From Candidatus Eiseniibacteriota bacterium (GTDB lineage Bacteria; Eisenbacteria; RBG-16-71-46; CAIMUX01), in contig CAIMUX010000123.1 in assembly GCA_903844735.1 (NCBI GenBank), positions 1 to 64,000 on the forward strand: 64,000 nt of DNA. The letters run 5' to 3'. A program made the translations under genes and the position numbers. This document shows, one piece after another, positions 16,811 to 27,365 of the stretch. Under the pieces are notes generated by a model. It ran no database searches. It was not told the origin of the DNA and saw only the letters and a list, made by a program, of their open reading frames with translations. Within the stretch, counting starts at the first letter, position 1. Every line of letters begins with the position of its first letter.

Positions 16811-17443
16811 ATGGCAGGCAACTTCTACATCGCGATCGAGGGGGTGATCGGTGTGGGCAAGACCACGCTGACACAGGCCCTGGCCGCCGCTACCGGCGCG
16901 CGTTCCATCCTCGAGCCGGTAGAGGAGAACCCTTTTCTCGAGGCGTTCTACAAGGACCGCCGCCGGTTCGCGTTCCAGACGCAGCTCTTCTTCCTCCTCT
17001 CGCGCTACCGGCAGATGATGGCGCTGCGGCAGCGTGATCTTTTCCAAAACGCGGTTGTGTGCGACTACTTGTTCCAGAAGGACAGGATTTTCGCAGGGAT
17101 CAACCTCTCCGATGAAGAGATGGTGCTCTACGACCAGATCCTGCCGCTGTTGGAGCGCGACCTGCCGCGGCCCGACAAGGTTGTCTACCTGCGGGCCGAC
17201 CTGCCGGTCATCCTCAAGCGGATCGAGAAACGGGGGCGTTCCTTCGAACGCAGCATCGACCCGGACTACCTGCGCGTTCTTGACGAGGCGTATACCCAGT
17301 TCTTTTTTCACTATCAGGCGGCGCCGCTGCTGGTCGTGAACACCAACCTCATTGATCTCGTGGATCGGCCGGCAGACCGGGATGACCTCATTCGGCGGAT
17401 TCTCGGGCACGAGAAGGGGACTGCGTATTTCAATCCCGGTTGA
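16811..17443 (+). CDS. Deoxynucleoside kinase (dCK/dGK family)
   Basis: A nucleoside salvage kinase of 210 residues with P-loop GVIGVGKTT (11-19), the LEPVEENPFLEAFYKD region, and DYLFQKDRIFA where the family has its base-recognising DR motif. The lid is Arg-rich (KRIEKRGRSFERSI). Such kinases phosphorylate deoxyadenosine, deoxyguanosine or deoxycytidine; the exact substrate cannot be told from the sequence. It follows folK by 25 nt, an arrangement known from several Bacteroidetes-like and related genomes. It converges with the GT-C gene, with a 6-nt gap. Confidence 0.9.
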   Translation: MAGNFYIAIEGVIGVGKTTLTQALAAATGARSILEPVEENPFLEAFYKDRRRFAFQTQLFFLLSRYRQMMALRQRDLFQNAVVCDYLFQKDRIFAGINLSDEEMVLYDQILPLLERDLPRPDKVVYLRADLPVILKRIEKRGRSFERSIDPDYLRVLDEAYTQFFFHYQAAPLLVVNTNLIDLVDRPADRDDLIRRILGHEKGTAYFNPG

Positions 17444-17449
17444 TCGGCG

Positions 17450-18982
17450 CTACCGCCCCTCGATCCTCCGCAACGCAATGAAGTCGGGAACCGAGCGCCC
17501 TGTGGTCTGCTCCGGCGGCAGGATCGCCTCGCGCCGGGGAAGTTCGGTGCTGCCCTCCGCCCGGAAGCGGGCCATCGGCTCATAGACGCCGAGCAAGCCT
17601 CCCTCGACATAGCGCTGATAGACCCCGCGGCCCGTCGGAAGAAGAAGGACGGCGGGCTTGCGGTCGAGGGTGAAGCGCACGTCCTTCCCCGGATCGTCCG
17701 CGTGGGCGGCGTAGTCTCGCCGGAGCTCCGGAGAAACCAGCCCCCCCGCGTCCAGGATCGTGCGGCCGGAGACATAACCGACGTAGCCGATGTCGGACAT
17801 CTCCACCACCTCGTCCGGCGCCGTGTGGTCCTGTGCCCAGAGCGCCATCGGAAGGTAGACCCTTTCGGCGATCTGCTTGCTCCAGGCGGCGGACTGGAGT
17901 GCCCGCGGAGCGCTGACCGCCAGAAGCCCCGCCCACAGGGCCGCAAACGCTGCGAGAGCAAGGCCGGACCGACGGGGCCGGAAACGGAGGGCGAGCGGGA
18001 GAACGCCGACTGCGACCAGCCCCATCAGAGGAGCGGCCAGCGGCGGGAAGTACCAAAGCCCGAGAAACGGCGGTCGGGCGACAAGAAAAAAGAACGTATA
18101 GGCCGCGGCCCATGCCGCCGCCAGCCCCAGCGAAGCGCTGCGTCGAACCCACGCCCAGGCGGTACCGACGGCGGAGACCGTCCAGGCCAGGGTGATCACC
18201 GGGTTTCTCCAGACGAAGAAACGACCCCAATCTCCCACGGAGATATTCTGCTGACTCGCCTTGGCCAGAGCCGAGTTGGGGATGAACGATCCGAAATACA
18301 GCGTGGCAAAGGCGATCCAGGGCAGGACGACCGCGGCGAAGACGCCGACTGCGCCCCACGGAAGCGGCCTGTGGTTGGGCATCCTCCGCCCCCGCGTCGA
18401 CCGACCCAGAGCCGCCATCCCGAGGAGCATCGCCAGGATGAAGCCCTCGGGCCGCGTCAGGGCGGCGAACCCGGTGGCCAGAGCGCTCAAGCGTGGCCTT
18501 CCCGCGGCGGCCGCGGCCATGGCGCCGAGCGCCAAGAATTCAAACACCTGGGTCTCCATGCCGTAGCCGCAGGAGGCTATCTGGGCGTAGAAAAGAGCGT
18601 AGAGGGCGGCCGCTAACAGCCCGGTCGACTCGGCCGCGTCTTCCCTTTCCGGAACCGCCCCGCGCGCCGCCCGGCGAACGAAGAAGAACAGAAGCCCCAT
18701 CGTCCCGAGGGAGGCCACAACAGCCAGAACCGCGGCGGCCTTCTCCAGGGGAAACCCGAGGCCCGCGAGAGGTGTGAGAAGAAGCGTGAAGAAGGGTGTC
18801 GTCGTACCCAGCACGCGCTCACCCATGTTGTAGACGAAACCGTGGCCGGCCGCTATGTTGCGCGCATACCGGTAGGTGATGAAGGCGTCATCGACCGGGG
18901 CCGACACTAAGACGGCTGCGATGCGCAATCCCCCCGCGACCAGGAACAGAGCGAGCAGAATCCAACGGCATCGCCTGGTCAT
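17450..18982 (-). CDS. Polytopic GT-C-type glycosyltransferase
   Basis: A 510-residue membrane protein with about nine to eleven hydrophobic helices. The first loop contains DDAFITYRYARNIAAGHGFVYNMGERVLG, the pattern of polyprenyl-phosphate-sugar-dependent GT-C transferases (arabinofuranosyl/mannosyl transferase-like), with the acidic pair DD at the expected catalytic place. A C-terminal soluble region of about 130 residues follows the last helix. Donor and acceptor are unknown. The ATG is preceded by GGGAGG. It stands alone on the minus strand. Confidence 0.8.
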   Translation of the reverse strand: MTRRCRWILLALFLVAGGLRIAAVLVSAPVDDAFITYRYARNIAAGHGFVYNMGERVLGTTTPFFTLLLTPLAGLGFPLEKAAAVLAVVASLGTMGLLFFFVRRAARGAVPEREDAAESTGLLAAALYALFYAQIASCGYGMETQVFEFLALGAMAAAAAGRPRLSALATGFAALTRPEGFILAMLLGMAALGRSTRGRRMPNHRPLPWGAVGVFAAVVLPWIAFATLYFGSFIPNSALAKASQQNISVGDWGRFFVWRNPVITLAWTVSAVGTAWAWVRRSASLGLAAAWAAAYTFFFLVARPPFLGLWYFPPLAAPLMGLVAVGVLPLALRFRPRRSGLALAAFAALWAGLLAVSAPRALQSAAWSKQIAERVYLPMALWAQDHTAPDEVVEMSDIGYVGYVSGRTILDAGGLVSPELRRDYAAHADDPGKDVRFTLDRKPAVLLLPTGRGVYQRYVEGGLLGVYEPMARFRAEGSTELPRREAILPPEQTTGRSVPDFIALRRIEGR

Positions 18983-19125
18983 TTCGCCTCCCTACCTACG
19001 CTTCGATCGGCTGTGCGCTTCCGGTTACGCCGCGTGCCGTTTTGGATCCTTGCGCATCTGCCGGAGAACGCATTCTTGATCTTCGGGTCCGCCGTGCCCC
19101 CCTTTTGTCGCCGCCTACGTGAGCT

Positions 19126-19290
19126 CTAGCTCGATGCTGCCGGTTGCTGAACCTCTCGGATCAACTGGTCTAGATCGACAAAGCGGACACGAAGATCCTG
19201 GAAGACCCGTTCATAGGATCGCCCGGCATCGGCGGCGACGACGAAGTTGATTTCCCCCGGATATCGCGCGCGGAAAGGGCGCCGGATCAT
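19126..19290 (-). CDS. Short hypothetical protein, possibly a gene fragment
   Basis: A 54-residue frame (MIRRPFRARYPGEINFVVAA...LIREVQQPAASS) whose ATG overlaps the stop of the 26-residue frame upstream (ATGA). The composition looks protein-like (DLRVRFVDLDQLIREV), but no family is recognised. It may be the C-terminal remnant of a small toxin-antitoxin-type protein. Low confidence. Confidence 0.3.
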   Translation of the reverse strand: MIRRPFRARYPGEINFVVAADAGRSYERVFQDLRVRFVDLDQLIREVQQPAASS

Positions 19291-19367
19291 CCTTGGCCCC
19301 CCTGCTCAGAGCCGGCTATGAGCGCCGTACTTCGCACGATCTTCTTGCGGTCGATCCGATCCGACAT
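19287..19367 (-). CDS. Very short hypothetical ORF, probable fragment
   Basis: A 26-residue frame (MSDRIDRKKIVRSTALIAGS...) with a good Shine-Dalgarno sequence (GGAGG, 7 nt upstream of the ATG) and an ATGA overlap with the next frame. The strong ribosome site suggests that a real gene started here; the early stop suggests it has decayed. Function unknown. Confidence 0.3.
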   Translation of the reverse strand: MSDRIDRKKIVRSTALIAGSEQGGQG

Positions 19368-19682
19368 CCTCTCGCCTCCGGGTATTGTTGATCCCGCTCA
19401 AAGTGATCGTAATCAATTGTAACCGAGTAGGGTAGGCCGTTCGAGGGCGGGGTAAGCGACTGCGTATCCGCCGCCGACCAGCTACGCAACGTCGTGGAAG
19501 TTCAGTGACCTCAAGAACTCTCTGAACTTGTCCACCCCACGCTTGGCAGCGGCCTCCCCACCCCCTACGATGTGACACCGCAGCGCGGATCGTCCATGCG
19601 CCCCGACGCAGGCGATCCGGGTCAGTCTGCGTCGGACGTTCAGCCAACCGGGCGAACAGAGCGCCCCCAAAAGGGAGATCCC

Positions 19683-20498
19683 ATGGCCAAGCGTTGGACA
19701 GCTCGGCAAGTTCGGGCCCTCAAGGGCAAGGAACGGATCCCGGTCGTCACTTGCTACGACTGGGCGTTCGCCCGACTCTGCGATGAAGCGGGTTTCCCCG
19801 TGCTCCTCGTGGGCGACAGCTTGGGCAACACCGTCCTCGGCCACGAGACCACGATCCCGGTTCGGCTGGAGGACATGATCCACCACGCCGCTGCGGTGAT
19901 GCGCGCACGCCCGAAGGCGCTTGTCGTCGTCGATATGCCGTTTCTGTCGTTCCAGGTCAACGCCGAGAAGGCCCTGGAAGCGGCGGGGCGGATCCTGCAG
20001 GAGACCGGCGCCGATGCCGTAAAGCTGGAGGGCGGCCACCGCAGCGCCGACGCGGTGCAGAAGATCACCGAAGCGGGGATTCCGGTGATGGGGCATCTCG
20101 GCCTCACGCCGCAGTCCGTGCTGGAGTTCGGCGGCTACGGAGTGCAGGGACGCGGCCCGGCGGGGAACATCTTGGTGGACGACGCGTGCCTGCTCGAGGA
20201 CGCCGGTGCGTTCAGCATCGTTCTGGAGAAGATCCCGGCGCCGCTGGCGGAGCGGATCACCCGGAAAGTCTCGATTCCGACCATCGGCATCGGCGCGGGT
20301 GTGGGTTGCGACGGGCAGGTACTCGTGCTGCACGACATTCTCGGGCTGGTGCCCGCGTTCAAGCCGCGCTTCGTGAAGCGCTACGCCGATCTGGGTGCCA
20401 CTGTGGTGGAGGCGCTGATCCGCTACGCCACCGAGGTGCGCGACGGATCGTTCCCGGGCCCGGAACATGCCTACGATGAGGAGGAGGAGAGTCCGTGA
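19683..20498 (+). CDS. panB: 3-methyl-2-oxobutanoate hydroxymethyltransferase
   Basis: Makes ketopantoate from 2-oxoisovalerate and methylene-tetrahydrofolate, the first pantothenate step. The 271-residue protein shows the family motifs VVTCYDWAFARLCDEAG, LLVGDSLGNTVLGH (metal-binding Asp), DAVKLEGG and GIGAGVGCDGQVLVLHD. The start at 19683 (MAKRWTARQVRALKG) has GGGAGA upstream; the longer frame to 19572 adds an unrelated low-complexity extension. Its stop overlaps the panC GTG (GTGA). Confidence 0.96.
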   Translation: MAKRWTARQVRALKGKERIPVVTCYDWAFARLCDEAGFPVLLVGDSLGNTVLGHETTIPVRLEDMIHHAAAVMRARPKALVVVDMPFLSFQVNAEKALEAAGRILQETGADAVKLEGGHRSADAVQKITEAGIPVMGHLGLTPQSVLEFGGYGVQGRGPAGNILVDDACLLEDAGAFSIVLEKIPAPLAERITRKVSIPTIGIGAGVGCDGQVLVLHDILGLVPAFKPRFVKRYADLGATVVEALIRYATEVRDGSFPGPEHAYDEEEESP

Positions 20499-21487
20499 AG
20501 ATCGTGCGCACGGCAGTGGCGGTGCGGACGGCGGTGCGCGCGGCCCGCGCTCGCGGCGAGCGGATCGGGTTCGTCCCCACCATGGGCTTCCTTCACGAGG
20601 GGCACCTGTCGCTGGCGCGACGGGCCAGGGGCGAGAACGGCCTCGTGGTGGCGAGTATCTTCGTCAACCCGCTTCAGTTCGGTCCCGCCGAGGACTTCGA
20701 TGGTTATCCGCAGGCGCCGCGCCGCGACCACGCTCTGCTCATCCGCGAGGGGGTCGATCTCTGCTACGAGCCGCGCGCCGATGCCGTCTACGCCGAAGAC
20801 TTCTCTACGCTGATCGTCGTGAACGACCTTGATGAGCCGCTGTGCGGCCGGTTCCGCTCAGGGCACTTCATCGGCGTGGCCACCGTGGTGGCGAAACTCC
20901 TCCACGCCGTCGAGCCTGACCGGCTCTACCTCGGGGCCAAAGACTGGCAACAGTCGCGGGTGATCACCCGCATGATCCGTGACCTGGAGCTGCCGGTGGC
21001 GTTGGTCGTCTGTCCGACGGTCCGCGAGCCCGATGGCCTCGCGATGAGCTCGCGGAACACCTATCTCACGGCACAGGAGCGGGCCTGGGCGCCGAACATC
21101 CATCGCGCGCTATCGGCGATCGCGGCCGAAGTGCGCGCGGGGAGGCTCACGAGGCCGGGCGAGGTGGCCACCGCGGTGCGCCGCTGCTTGCGAGGCGGGC
21201 TCGGTCGCGTGCAGTACGCCGAGATCCTCGATGCCGAGAGCCTCCGCCCCGTCGATTTGCTTCGAGGTCGGCTGGTTCTCGCCACGGCCTGCTTTGTGGG
21301 GAAGGCCCGCCTCATCGACAATGTCGTCTTCACGGTGCCGTCTCGCGCCGCGCGTGGGACGAGGAAGGCCGGCGCGCCCGGCGCGTTGAGCAAGGCGGGC
21401 ACGACGGGCGGATCCGTCAAAGTCGGCGCGAAACGAGCGCCACGTCAGGCCGACTCCGCACGTTCGACGACCTGGAGGCCCCGGTGA
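20495..21487 (+). CDS. panC: Pantothenate synthetase
   Basis: Condenses pantoate and beta-alanine using ATP. Nucleotidyl-transferase motifs are present: GFLHEGHLSL (HIGH-type), KDWQQSRVI (KMSKS-like position) and MSSRNTYL. The core of about 280 residues is normal. It carries a C-terminal Ala/Gly/Lys/Arg-rich extension of about 45 residues (from SRAARGTRKAG), unlike typical PanC. The GTG start overlaps panB, and the stop overlaps the GTG of the GlmU-HIT gene, so the three are translationally linked. Confidence 0.95.
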   Translation: MKIVRTAVAVRTAVRAARARGERIGFVPTMGFLHEGHLSLARRARGENGLVVASIFVNPLQFGPAEDFDGYPQAPRRDHALLIREGVDLCYEPRADAVYAEDFSTLIVVNDLDEPLCGRFRSGHFIGVATVVAKLLHAVEPDRLYLGAKDWQQSRVITRMIRDLELPVALVVCPTVREPDGLAMSSRNTYLTAQERAWAPNIHRALSAIAAEVRAGRLTRPGEVATAVRRCLRGGLGRVQYAEILDAESLRPVDLLRGRLVLATACFVGKARLIDNVVFTVPSRAARGTRKAGAPGALSKAGTTGGSVKVGAKRAPRQADSARSTTWRPR

Positions 21488-22698
21488 CCACCCCGACCGA
21501 CCGCCGTTGGGTCAGCCTCGTCCTCGCCGCCGGCAAGGGAACGCGGATGAATTCCGATCTTGCCAAGGTCCTCCACGAGATCGACGGGCGCTCGCTGCTC
21601 GGACACGTCCTCGATACCGCCGCGTCGCTCCACCTCTCCCGCATGATCGTGGTCGTGGGACATCAGGCCGAAGAGGTCCGGCGACGCCACACCCCTGACG
21701 GTGTCGAGTTCGCGATGCAGCAGCCGCAGCTCGGCACCGGCCACGCGGTGATGGTGGCGGCTCCTCTCCTGGAGACCGAACCGCCCGACGCCGACTGCCT
21801 TGTCCTCTACGGTGATGTCCCGCTGCTGCGCGCTTCCACGCTCCACGAGCTGATGGAGCGCCATCGGCTCGATGGCAACGGCGTCACCGTCCTGACCGCC
21901 GAGGTGGACGATCCCAAAGGCTATGGCCGCATCATCCGCGACGCGCGCGGCGATTTCCGATGCATCACCGAGGACCGCGATCTAGACCCCGCCCAGCGCG
22001 GCATTCGCGAGATCAACTCCGGCATCTACGCCTTCCAACTGGCCCCGCTGCTCCGCGCTCTCGGCTCGCTGCGCGCCGACAACTCTCAGAAGGAGTACTA
22101 TCTCACCGACGCTCTCACCGTGATCCGCGACGCGGGGTTACCGGTGGGGGTGTTCCTGCTCGGCGATCCGCAGGAGATTTCCGGCATCAACACGCCGGCG
22201 CAACTGGCCGATGCCGCGGCGGTTCTCGCGCGGCGACGGGCCGACCCCGCGGAAGGCTGCCTCGCGTGTGCCCTCCTCTCGCGGGAGGATCTCGTGCTGG
22301 CGCGGTACCCAGGGGCGGTAATCGCGCTCGCCCCGCGGCCGTACAACGCCGGGCATCTCTGGATCGTGCCGGAGCAGCACCTCGTCTCGTGGGAGTCGCT
22401 CTCACCCGCCGCCGCGGAGCATCTTCTGAGCCTGGCGGCCGAGGCGGAGCGCTGGCTGGAAGAGGCCTACCACCCCCAGGCGACGAACCTCGGGTACAAT
22501 TCGGGGACAGCGGGCGAGCATGTCGTCGTCCAGGTCGTGCCCCGCTGGACCGGTGACGCCAACTTCATGCCGCTCTTCGCCGGCGTGAACATCCTTCCGG
22601 AGACCCCGGAGGGGACCCGTCGGCACATTCTCGAAGCCCGGGACCGGCTCGCCGCCGGAGGCAGGGATGCCGCACCCGAAACGGGAGGGACGCCGTGA
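21484..22698 (+). CDS. GlmU-like nucleotidyltransferase fused to a degenerate HIT domain
   Basis: Residues 1-255 form a sugar-nucleotidyltransferase domain very close to the uridylyltransferase half of GlmU: LVLAAGKGTRMNSDLAKVLH, QPQLGTGHAV, YGDVPLL, GYGRIIRD, EINSGIYAF and NSQKEYYLTD. The left-handed-helix acetyltransferase half is missing. Instead residues about 258-385 form a HIT domain: CLAC, PRPYNAGHLWIVPEQHLVSW, NLGYNSG, VVPRWTGDANFMPLFAG. The HIT triad normally reads HxHxH (or HxHxQ); here it is HVVVQ (His346, Val348, Gln350), so the nucleophilic middle His is lost. UDP-GlcNAc-type synthesis by the first half is likely; the HIT half is probably a non-catalytic nucleotide-binding or regulatory unit. 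GTG overlaps at both ends couple it to panC and the LytR_C gene. Confidence 0.88.
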   Translation: MTTPTDRRWVSLVLAAGKGTRMNSDLAKVLHEIDGRSLLGHVLDTAASLHLSRMIVVVGHQAEEVRRRHTPDGVEFAMQQPQLGTGHAVMVAAPLLETEPPDADCLVLYGDVPLLRASTLHELMERHRLDGNGVTVLTAEVDDPKGYGRIIRDARGDFRCITEDRDLDPAQRGIREINSGIYAFQLAPLLRALGSLRADNSQKEYYLTDALTVIRDAGLPVGVFLLGDPQEISGINTPAQLADAAAVLARRRADPAEGCLACALLSREDLVLARYPGAVIALAPRPYNAGHLWIVPEQHLVSWESLSPAAAEHLLSLAAEAERWLEEAYHPQATNLGYNSGTAGEHVVVQVVPRWTGDANFMPLFAGVNILPETPEGTRRHILEARDRLAAGGRDAAPETGGTP

Positions 22699-23225
22699 GC
22701 ACACGCAAGAGCAGAAAGCGGGGGCTGGGGCGCGGCTTCGGCCGCATGGTGGAGATCCTGGCAGGGACGGCCCTCTTTTTCGTCGTGCTCGTTTTCGGTA
22801 TCTCGATCGCGAAGCGCTACAGCGGGGAGGAGAGAGTAGCGCGGCGGGCCGAGCCCGTGTCCTACGTGACGCCGGCGCCCACGGCCGCGGATCTCGACAC
22901 GCTGCGCAATCGCCCCACACTGAAACTCCTGAACGGGTGCGGCCGCCCCGGGCTGGCCGACCGGATGCAGTCGCCCCTGCGCCGGGCGGGCTTTGATGTT
23001 CTCGACACGGACAACGCCGACCGCTTCGACTACGATCGCACCGTCGTGCGCGATCGTTCCGCGAAGACCGGAGCGGCGGAGAAACTGCGCGACTGGCTGC
23101 GGGCGGAGTATGGCGTCGGTGAGATCCGTGAGGACGCCGTGCCGGTCCCGGAGGCGGACCTGATCCTCGTCTTGGGCCAAGATCTGGCTGATTCGCTGGC
23201 AAAGAGAGAGAACCGGGCCCGCTGA
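22695..23225 (+). CDS. LytR C-terminal-domain membrane protein
   Basis: A 176-residue protein with one N-terminal membrane helix (about 20-42, ILAGTALFFVVLVFGISIA) after a basic start, and an extracytoplasmic LytR_C-like domain (about 72-165). The hallmark is LKLLNGCGRPGLADRMQSPLRRAGFDV. LytR_C domains occur in envelope proteins, often next to LytR-CpsA-Psr domains, which are absent here. The role is unknown. GTG start overlapping the upstream stop. Confidence 0.8.
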   Translation: MSTRKSRKRGLGRGFGRMVEILAGTALFFVVLVFGISIAKRYSGEERVARRAEPVSYVTPAPTAADLDTLRNRPTLKLLNGCGRPGLADRMQSPLRRAGFDVLDTDNADRFDYDRTVVRDRSAKTGAAEKLRDWLRAEYGVGEIREDAVPVPEADLILVLGQDLADSLAKRENRAR

Positions 23226-23626: not shown

Positions 23627-23854
23627 TCACGCAGCCTCAGTGGCTGCGTAGACCTTTCCTTTCTTCGTCAGCCACGCCACGTCTCCCCGCTCGGCATGCT
23701 CCTTGATCTCGCGGAGGAGCTGAACTGTCTCAGATTCGTAGCACGGCTCGCTAAGGTCATCGGCAGGGATGACCATCTCGATCTCCACAGCAACCACATA
23801 TTTCTCGGTCTGAATCAATCGAGTCCGTCTGACTCGCTCTCCGGGAATACCCAT
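23627..23854 (-). CDS. Small hypothetical protein, partner of the DUF4258 gene
   Basis: A 75-residue acidic protein (MGIPGERVRRTRLIQTEKYV... ending WLTKKGKVYAATEAA). The start was chosen from AGGAG about 6 nt before the ATG at 23854; the longer upstream frame overlaps the neighbouring gene. It lies 2 nt downstream of the DUF4258 gene in the same direction. Its middle (EIEMVIPADDLSEPCYESETVQLLREIKEHAE) is plausible for a small antitoxin or regulatory partner, but no family is recognised with confidence. Confidence 0.6.
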   Translation of the reverse strand: MGIPGERVRRTRLIQTEKYVVAVEIEMVIPADDLSEPCYESETVQLLREIKEHAERGDVAWLTKKGKVYAATEAA

Positions 23855-23856
23855 AC

Positions 23857-24144
23857 TTAGCTCCTGTCGAAGAAGTGGACGGTTACCAGTTTGGCGACGC
23901 CACTCTGATGCAGATGAGACCAAATGGCCTTGAATTCGGTCCCATCCGGCAAAGACTCGCGCACTTCCGCAGCCGGGTTCGGCGAAGCGTCCACTCGCTC
24001 GACTATCAACTCGCCGTCTTCCAGACCCGCGACCGCCTGCCACTCCATGATACCACGCTCTTCCATCCGTTCGGAAGCGTGCAGGCCGACGACGTACTTC
24101 TCCTCGGCGACGAGTCGGCGAATCGTATCGAATAGCTGTCCCAT
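23857..24144 (-). CDS. DUF4258-family toxin-like protein
   Basis: A 95-residue protein (MGQLFDTIRRLVAEEKYVVG...VTVHFFDRS) with the DUF4258 pattern: LHASERMEERGI followed by a beta-rich half ending in KLVTVHF. DUF4258 proteins are often encoded next to small antitoxin-like genes and resemble RelE/BrnT-type RNases; activity has not been shown for most. The ATG at 24144 has GGAGGAGG upstream. It forms a tight two-gene unit with the 75-residue gene 2 nt downstream. Confidence 0.65.
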   Translation of the reverse strand: MGQLFDTIRRLVAEEKYVVGLHASERMEERGIMEWQAVAGLEDGELIVERVDASPNPAAEVRESLPDGTEFKAIWSHLHQSGVAKLVTVHFFDRS

Positions 24145-24483
24145 CGGCCTCCTCCCTTCATCCTCGGCCACCAATTCGACCGAGACCTGGGAGCCCGAAT
24201 ACCCTACCGCGACTCTCATGTGCCGAATAGAGGATTCAACGGACCTGCGCTCAGCGGTCGTCAAGGGACCGCACCGCTCCCGCCGCCCCGCCGCAACTCG
24301 TTGCTGTAGGCCCACTCAGGCACTCGCAGTCATATTCCCCTGGCGGCCGGGCGGGTTGTGCGCTATGCTTACCCATCCGGTCGCCTGCCCTCCTCCAGAA
24401 GGTGACTCGCCCGGGGTAACCGCCGGGATCATGCCCCGATCGGACACACGTTTCATCACAAGGATCCAGTCACAAGGAGAACC
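24145..24483. other. Intergenic region upstream of typA
   Basis: About 340 bp between the divergent DUF4258 gene and typA. No RNA gene, repeat or convincing promoter was recognised. The typA ribosome site (AAGGAGAACC) lies at the right end. Confidence 0.5.
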
Positions 24484-26291: not shown

Positions 26292-27365
26292 TTGGGGCGC
26301 CGGACGCGCGTGCATCTCTTCGTTCCGGGCCGCATCTGTCTCCTGGGCGAGCACTCGGACTGGGCCGGCGGGTACCGGACCGTCTGTCCGGACCTGGAGA
26401 AGGGGCACGCGATCATCGCGGGTACGAATCAAGGGATTCACGCCGAGGTCGAAGCACATCCTTCCTCGCTCGTGCTCCTCGCGACGACACCCGACGGTCT
26501 CCGGCACGGTCCGCACGAGATCCCGATGCGGGCGGACGCGCTTCTCCAGGAGGCGCTGGCCGGTGGTTTCTGGAGCTACGTCGCCGGAGTGGCCTACCAG
26601 GTGCTGCTCCAACACAAGGTCGGCGGCCTCGTGCTCCACAACCACCGGACTGATCTTCCGCTGCGCAAGGGCCTCTCCTCGAGTGCTGCCATCAGCGTCC
26701 TCGCGGCCCGAGCGTTCAATCGCGTCTACGGGCTGGACCTCGACACCCGGCAGGAGATGGAACTCGCCTACCAGGGAGAGATCACCACCCCGTCGCGGTG
26801 CGGCCGTATGGACCAGGGGTGTGCTTTCGGAAATCACGTCGTCCTGATGACCTTCGACGGAGACCGGCTCGAGACCGAAGAACTGACCGTCGGCGCGGAC
26901 CTGCACCTCGTCCTGGTCGACCTGCAGGCCCGGAAAGACACAGTGAAGATCCTCGCGCAGTTGCATCGCGCGTACCCCCGTGCGGAAACCGAGATCGAAC
27001 GCGGCGTGCAAGAACTCCTTGGGCCGGTCAACCGGCGCCTTGTGCATGAGGCCGTCGAAGCCCTGCGCCGCGGGAGCGGGGAACGGCTGGGCGCACTGAT
27101 GTCGGAAGCGCAGGCGGCCTTCGACCGACACGCCGTCCCCGCCTGCCCGGTGGAGTTGACCGCGCCGGTGCTTCACCGCGTACTCGAATACGGACCGCTG
27201 CGATCGCTCACCTGGGGTGGCAAGGGGGTCGGGTCCCAGGGCGATGGCGCCGTGCAGTTTGTCGTCCGCGGACCGGAAGCGCAGCGCACGGCGATAGCGA
27301 TCATCGAACGCGATCTCGGGATGCCTTGCATGGAACTGACGCTTCGAGGGCTGGCGATCACGTGA
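26292..27365 (+). CDS. GHMP kinase, galactokinase-like
   Basis: A 357-residue small-molecule kinase. The N-terminal motif PGRICLLGEHSDWAGGY matches the galactokinase signature region, and LPLRKGLSSSAAISVLAA is the GHMP phosphate-binding loop. A C-terminal WGGKGVGSQGDGAVQFV matches GHMP motif 3. It is shorter than true galactokinases and departs from them in the sugar-binding region, so the substrate (a hexose or related sugar) is unclear. The start is TTG at 26292, 2 nt after typA; a later start would cut into motif 1. Confidence 0.82.
   Translation: MGRRTRVHLFVPGRICLLGEHSDWAGGYRTVCPDLEKGHAIIAGTNQGIHAEVEAHPSSLVLLATTPDGLRHGPHEIPMRADALLQEALAGGFWSYVAGVAYQVLLQHKVGGLVLHNHRTDLPLRKGLSSSAAISVLAARAFNRVYGLDLDTRQEMELAYQGEITTPSRCGRMDQGCAFGNHVVLMTFDGDRLETEELTVGADLHLVLVDLQARKDTVKILAQLHRAYPRAETEIERGVQELLGPVNRRLVHEAVEALRRGSGERLGALMSEAQAAFDRHAVPACPVELTAPVLHRVLEYGPLRSLTWGGKGVGSQGDGAVQFVVRGPEAQRTAIAIIERDLGMPCMELTLRGLAIT

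Follow-up and report, generated by a model that had tools for sequence, protein, structure and literature searches.

A GlmU-type uridylyltransferase fused to a HIT-derived domain that lacks the catalytic histidine

GlmU makes UDP-GlcNAc, with which the route to peptidoglycan begins; in the ordinary enzyme both trimer assembly and acetylation depend on the beta-helix domain. HIT proteins are usually dimeric. In the mycobacterial Ap4A phosphorylase Rv2613c the residues Asn139, Gly146 and Ser147 are reportedly those tested by mutation; a structure of its S147Q variant exists in the PDB. The metal ligands of E. coli GalT, which carries zinc, are C52, C55, H115 and H164; the HPH motif begins with H164, and its other His, H166, acts as the nucleophile (PMC5081055). 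HIT proteins without the catalytic part are already known: HINTW of birds is predicted to lack it, and an intact copy is found elsewhere in the genome (PMC4053838). As regards a GlmU-HIT pair or fusion, we found none described in the open-access literature, to which the search was confined.

The fusion gene and its GlmU half

The gene described here joins a GlmU-type uridylyltransferase to a HIT-derived domain. It lies in a 64,000-nucleotide stretch of contig CAIMUX010000123.1 (Candidatus Eiseniibacteriota bacterium), analysed as a whole and hereafter called the window. The genes of the cluster and the features of the first half of the protein are:

16811-17443 (+): deoxynucleoside kinase (dNK), a conserved member of the cluster (PF01712, 3.7e-42)
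19572-20498 (+): panB, operon neighbour (PF02548, 2.8e-105)
20495-21487 (+): panC, upstream operon neighbour of the fusion gene (PF02569, 6.4e-92)
21474-21478 (+): Shine-Dalgarno-like GGAGG 5' of the fusion gene
21484-22698 (+): GlmU-N / pseudo-HIT fusion gene, 404 aa with a GTG start, from the open reading frame and profile matches
21508-22233 (+): GlmU uridylyltransferase (NTP transferase) domain, residues ~9-250, with intact active-site residues
21814-21816 (+): Mg ligand D111 of the GlmU domain
22189-22191 (+): Mg ligand N236 of the GlmU domain
22252-22653 (+): HIT-derived domain, residues ~257-390, with an Rv2613c-like fold
22695-23225 (+): LytR_C-domain gene, downstream neighbour of the fusion gene (PF13399, 1.9e-12)

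The sequence-only reading of this locus had placed the gene between overlapping panC and LytR_C genes, and both overlaps were found: each is a 4-bp GTGA, at 21484-21487 on the panC side and at 22695-22698 on the LytR_C side. At 16811-23225 of the window, as in relatives, genes for pantothenate stand in one cluster with those for a nucleoside kinase, for GlmU and for a HIT of the Ap4A type.

Some other features of the surroundings are worth recording. A 510-aa hydrophobic protein with no Pfam match is encoded between dNK and panB (17450-18982, −); the spacing of these two genes is much smaller in relatives, and ~2 kb seems to have been inserted in the window. Downstream, a small DUF4258 gene (PF14076, 1.1e-6; 23857-24315, −) overlaps an unmatched short ORF (23627-24043, −), and the two are possibly a toxin-antitoxin-like pair. 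A GHMP kinase with a weak galactokinase signature (26292-27365, +) immediately follows typA/bipA.

The identification of the N-terminal half as a GlmU-type uridylyltransferase was upheld. S. pneumoniae GlmU is its best solved relative by sequence (E=1e-53), GlmU is also the best structural match of its AF2 model, and LAAGxGTRM, the substrate Lys, GT(G/A), YGD, NSG, YLTD and the Mg-binding Asp and Asn are all present. The TIGR01173 match reaches 254.7 bits, below the cut-off of 366.85, and spans model positions 4-241 of 452 only. The left-handed beta-helix acetyltransferase half that belongs to a bifunctional GlmU (TIGR01173) is missing, and the C-terminal half is matched instead by PF01230 (HIT; 3.1e-6, 28.2 bits against a cut-off of 21.5), in agreement with the claim that a HIT domain has taken its place.

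The same fusion was found in ten genomes (see below), and the GlmU active-site set is kept in nine of the ten proteins, apart from one T20K; the exception is the relative G009. No second GlmU-type uridylyltransferase or full GlmU was found elsewhere in these genomes, and in that of the window the next-best GlmU-type match scores 82.8 bits against 254.5 for the fused protein. This suggests that the cell probably relies on the fused protein as its main UDP-GlcNAc pyrophosphorylase.

Losses and retained features of the HIT half

Sequence, profile and fold together rule out that the HIT half is a chance match. By sequence it is closest to Rv2613c (4.6e-18). Coherently, Rv2613c and a Zn-bound HIT are its best PDB matches in Foldseek, the former with E=7.6e-12 and probability 1.00, as expected for a HIT fold. 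The relevant positions are:

22258-22269 (+): C259-x-x-C262, putative first and second zinc ligands, present in nine of the ten fused proteins
22330-22332 (+): Ala283 at the ribose-site Asn position, which is Asn in 38/38 intact HITs and in 0/10 fused proteins
22378-22380 (+): H299, putative zinc ligand 3
22504-22518 (+): shortened loop 5' of the triad, with the AGAG phosphate-loop residues deleted (alignment gaps in all ten fused proteins; residues found in all 38 intact relatives)
22519-22533 (+): degenerate triad H346-V347-V348-V349-Q350, with Val348 (22525-22527) at the nucleophile position and Gln at the third position
22540-22602 (+): retained tail PRWxGDx(N/S)[FY][ML]...PE, residues 353-373, where conservation within the HIT half is highest

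The triad HVVVQ, with Val348 in place of the middle His (codon 22525-22527), had been reported exactly as we find it, and departs from the catalytic H-x-H-x-H/Q pattern. The middle His is missing from all ten fused proteins (Ala in six, Val in two, Gly in two) and is kept in all 38 intact relatives, i.e. the unfused operon neighbours and the HITs of other phyla, as well as in the ten stand-alone copies of the order. The third triad position is still His in three fused proteins and is Gln in five. The losses extend to the nucleotide-binding residues of HIT proteins (ribose Asn/Asp and phosphate loop), both of which are gone from 10/10 fused proteins: the ribose-site Asn is replaced by A, S, E or H, and the loop is deleted. 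The positions of Gly146 and Ser147 of Rv2613c align with this deleted loop, so the residue set of an Rv2613c-type Ap4A phosphorylase is incomplete. Asn339, which aligns with the catalytic Asn139 of Rv2613c, is kept in 5/10 fused proteins, including that of the window. Furthermore, the N-terminal W..WRM segment has been lost from the fused HIT halves, and the HIT half of the window scores far under the NF052622 family cut-off. That the HIT-derived half is non-catalytic is strongly supported.

The sequence-only reading had also described the surrounding fold motifs as intact. The description fits the fold itself, the residues of the zinc site and the PRWxGD motif of the C-terminal part; it does not fit the nucleotide pocket, where the pre-triad loop and the ribose Asn are lost. 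An intact pocket is ruled out by these two losses, common to all ten fused proteins; the third His and Asn339 are mostly gone as well.

What remains is a putative zinc site. Besides C259, C262 and H299, its fourth ligand would be H346, the first triad His. All four residues occur in nine fused proteins and none in the tenth (G002); in the intact HIT of G050 the other three ligands are lost together and the catalytic first His is kept. By these residues the protein of the window would belong to the zinc-binding HIT branch. Considering the equivalence with H164 of GalT and the co-retention of the four ligands, H346 is best explained, by analogy, as a zinc ligand. This replaces its reading as a catalytic remnant of the triad (PMC5081055).

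The tail is the other retained feature. P353, R354, W355, G357, D358, P372 and E373 are invariant in 10/10 fused proteins, and PRWxGD and PE are among the 13 invariant positions of the HIT half. Tail codons vary synonymously among the fused genes, which indicates that selection acts on the protein. As judged from the alignments, the HIT half is demonstrably under purifying selection for the zinc site and the PRWxGDx(N/S)F...PE tail. At equal GlmU divergence, identity among the fused HIT halves is 0.37-0.40 versus 0.53 among intact HITs; this faster divergence means that the constraint is partly relaxed, not that the domain is free to change.

The AF2 model of the full-length monomer has a mean pLDDT of 87; its worst-predicted internal segment is formed by tail residues 359-369, with a mean pLDDT of 43 over residues 361-370. 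This suggests, and is suggestive only, that the conserved tail could be ordered by another chain or by a ligand. Intact HITs throughout the family carry the tail motif too, so it could serve to bind a ligand instead of serving in assembly.

The order also possesses stand-alone HIT genes. In ten of its genomes, these copies have intact HxHxH, AGAG and ribose Asn (10/10) and are without the PRWxGDxNF tail; in the genome of the window (G000) the copy lies on contig C131 near 85700-86000 (locus L131), with an intact HLHAH and the tail lost. Judging from these residues, the fused and stand-alone copies appear to retain opposite parts of one formerly conserved protein. A simple origin of the stand-alone HIT by recent duplication of the fused half is not favoured, as the HIT tree places it elsewhere and a grouping of the two is rejected, though only weakly (AU p=0.037); it may be an old paralogue or the product of a transfer.

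Distribution and single origin of the fusion

The search for the same two-domain order, suggested by the sequence-only reading, recovered it in 10 of the 11 genomes of the order, always with the middle His lost; the eleventh genome is 68% complete. Since the fused frame recurs in ten genomes of ten genera, spread over four families, a sequencing error or chimera is ruled out.

The phylum was sampled with 47 genomes, all of one class. Outside this order, the genomes of the phylum have glmU and HIT as two adjoining genes, the HxHxH motif is intact in 28/28 pairs read, and glmU encodes a monofunctional uridylyltransferase domain without the acetyltransferase half. The cluster order dNK-panB-panC-glmU-HIT-LytR_C is conserved throughout, and thus the fusion occupies the slot of the separate glmU-HIT pair. 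Relatives with an intact HxHxH at the same operon position, named beforehand as possible counter-evidence, do exist, but only as unfused neighbours. In other phyla, no HIT gene was found near glmU in 80 named loci with a GlmU-like gene (up to 6 kb on either side).

Each half of the fused proteins forms one clade, with support 100/97 for the HIT halves and 95/95 for the GlmU halves (row A_G022 of the GlmU tree was disregarded), and on the basis of these trees the fusion has a single origin. It follows that the fusion and the triad loss each happened once, and that their association rests on a single event. Grouping of the fused HITs with the operon neighbours was not rejected (p=0.104).

Two loci of the phylum deviate from the common arrangement. 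In G027 (L177), a truncated GlmU is joined in frame to an intact HLHWH HIT; since the two genes are separate in relatives of the same genus, the join probably results from a deletion or from faulty assembly. In G014 (L168), there is no HIT gene between glmU and LytR_C, nor did any other part of this genome, which is 88% complete, give a HIT match.

The GlmU half of the fused relative G009 (L144:5586-6737, −) no longer has LAAG, the substrate Lys, YGD with its Mg Asp, NSG or YLTD; YGD has become SSS, LAAGKG has become LGAEHG and NSG has become SSG. The branch of this half is ~6x that of its sister (1.85 vs 0.31); that of the HIT half is ordinary (0.59 vs 0.47 for the sister), with zinc ligands and tail kept. 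The HIT half may have a separate role, or else the dead chain works beside an intact one missing from the assembly, which the 87% completeness of the genome and the end of the contig 26 bp upstream of the fused gene make possible.

Proposed role and comparison with known systems

An operon pair conserved across the phylum, consisting of a monofunctional glmU and an Ap4A-phosphorylase-type HIT gene, became one protein in one order; the HIT half lost its nucleophile, ribose Asn and AGAG loop, and the GlmU half kept its active site (9/10). We propose that the fused protein is an active pyrophosphorylase for UDP-GlcNAc or a closely related UDP-sugar. Its C-terminal domain would serve as a zinc-stabilised, non-catalytic assembly module, sitting where ordinary GlmU has the trimer-forming left-handed beta-helix and contacting other subunits or partners through the conserved tail. 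Any HIT catalysis that the cell needs would come from the separate intact HIT gene of the same genome. The proposal of an assembly module draws on the dimeric habit of HIT proteins and on the place that the domain occupies; disorder of the tail in the monomer model is as expected if a partner orders it. We regard a zinc-stabilised module in place of the beta-helix domain as roughly an even call, and favour assembly over an independent scaffold role and over nucleotide sensing.

The sequence-only reading had taken a conserved fold with a dead site to mean nucleotide sensing, i.e. that the pocket still binds a nucleotide or sugar nucleotide and controls the GlmU half allosterically. Dead enzyme domains that act as sensors exist, e.g. 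GMPPA, the HIT fold is predicted with Rv2613c and a Zn-bound HIT as best PDB matches, and the fusion partner is a sugar-nucleotide enzyme. Nevertheless, a sensing pocket would be expected to retain the Asn and the AGAG loop, both lost in 10/10 fused proteins, and with Asn339 in 5/10, the third His in 3/10, and the ligand-contacting part the least conserved and the tail the most, sensing through an intact pocket is not supported and the idea as a whole is unlikely, with some possibility left for a rewired ligand site. An active HIT chemistry running through other residues could be suspected from the Gln found at the third position in 5/10 proteins, as HxHxQ is the motif of transferases; with Ala, Val or Gly at the nucleophile position, no other conserved nucleophile among the invariant residues and the pre-triad loop deleted, it is scarcely credible.

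The total loss of catalytic residues and a divergence faster than in intact HITs would also be produced if loss of a stop codon had simply joined the two genes, leaving the HIT half to decay without function. Yet the half is present in every fused genome across four families without truncations, its zinc ligands are kept or lost in concert, and its 13 invariant positions, PRWxGD and PE included, persist amid synonymous changes, which makes a passive remnant very improbable. The decay of the GlmU half in G009, with the HIT half kept, would speak for a protein-binding or scaffold role of the domain apart from control of GlmU, the fusion only fixing co-expression; the tail, kept by the fused copy and lost by the stand-alone HIT of the same genomes as if ancestral features had been divided, goes in the same direction. 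This pattern comes from one genome, though, whose contig end and 87% completeness leave room for an intact copy, and we consider such a role rather unlikely. As for the preferred assembly module, G009 fits poorly with one serving only its own GlmU half, unless the chain works in trans. A fuller account, which we offer tentatively and with some doubt, is that fusion turned an Ap4A-type HIT into a non-catalytic zinc module of the sole GlmU-type uridylyltransferase, that the second HIT kept catalysis and lost the tail, and that the dead half keeps an essential role of its own, as the G009 pattern suggests.

In this phylum the uridylyltransferase domain occurs on its own next to a HIT gene; in one order the two have been joined and the HIT chemistry has been abolished. 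Since a single phylum has both the functional pair and the inactive fusion at one position of the operon, the passage from an enzyme to a non-catalytic module could be studied with matched proteins. That an Ap4A-type enzyme travels with GlmU may, moreover, hint at a connection of dinucleotide alarmones with the synthesis of cell-wall precursors.

Compared with known systems, the protein of the window shares with GlmU (TIGR01173; PDB 1g97, 3st8) the signature, the Mg ligands and the substrate residues, and differs in having a HIT-derived domain instead of the beta-helix acetyltransferase half. Rv2613c (3ano/3wo5; NF052622) is nearest to its HIT half in sequence and fold, and PRWxGDxNF is found in both; however, the triad is HLHVH in Rv2613c and HVVVQ here, the AGAG/GS loop is deleted, the ribose Asn is lost and the W..WRM segment is missing. 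E. coli GalT holds zinc at the same four positions that survive in the fused HIT half, but keeps the nucleophile His166 where the window protein has Val348 (PMC5081055). Some fused relatives pass the cut-off of CwfJ C-terminal domain 1 (PF04677; 27.6 and 23.7 vs 21), a eukaryotic splicing-related domain, with a weak and partial match. Finally, HINTW is eukaryotic, sex-linked and unfused, with a proposed dominant-negative role (PMC4053838), and resembles the fused HIT half in that the catalytic part is predicted to be missing and an intact HIT exists elsewhere in the genome.
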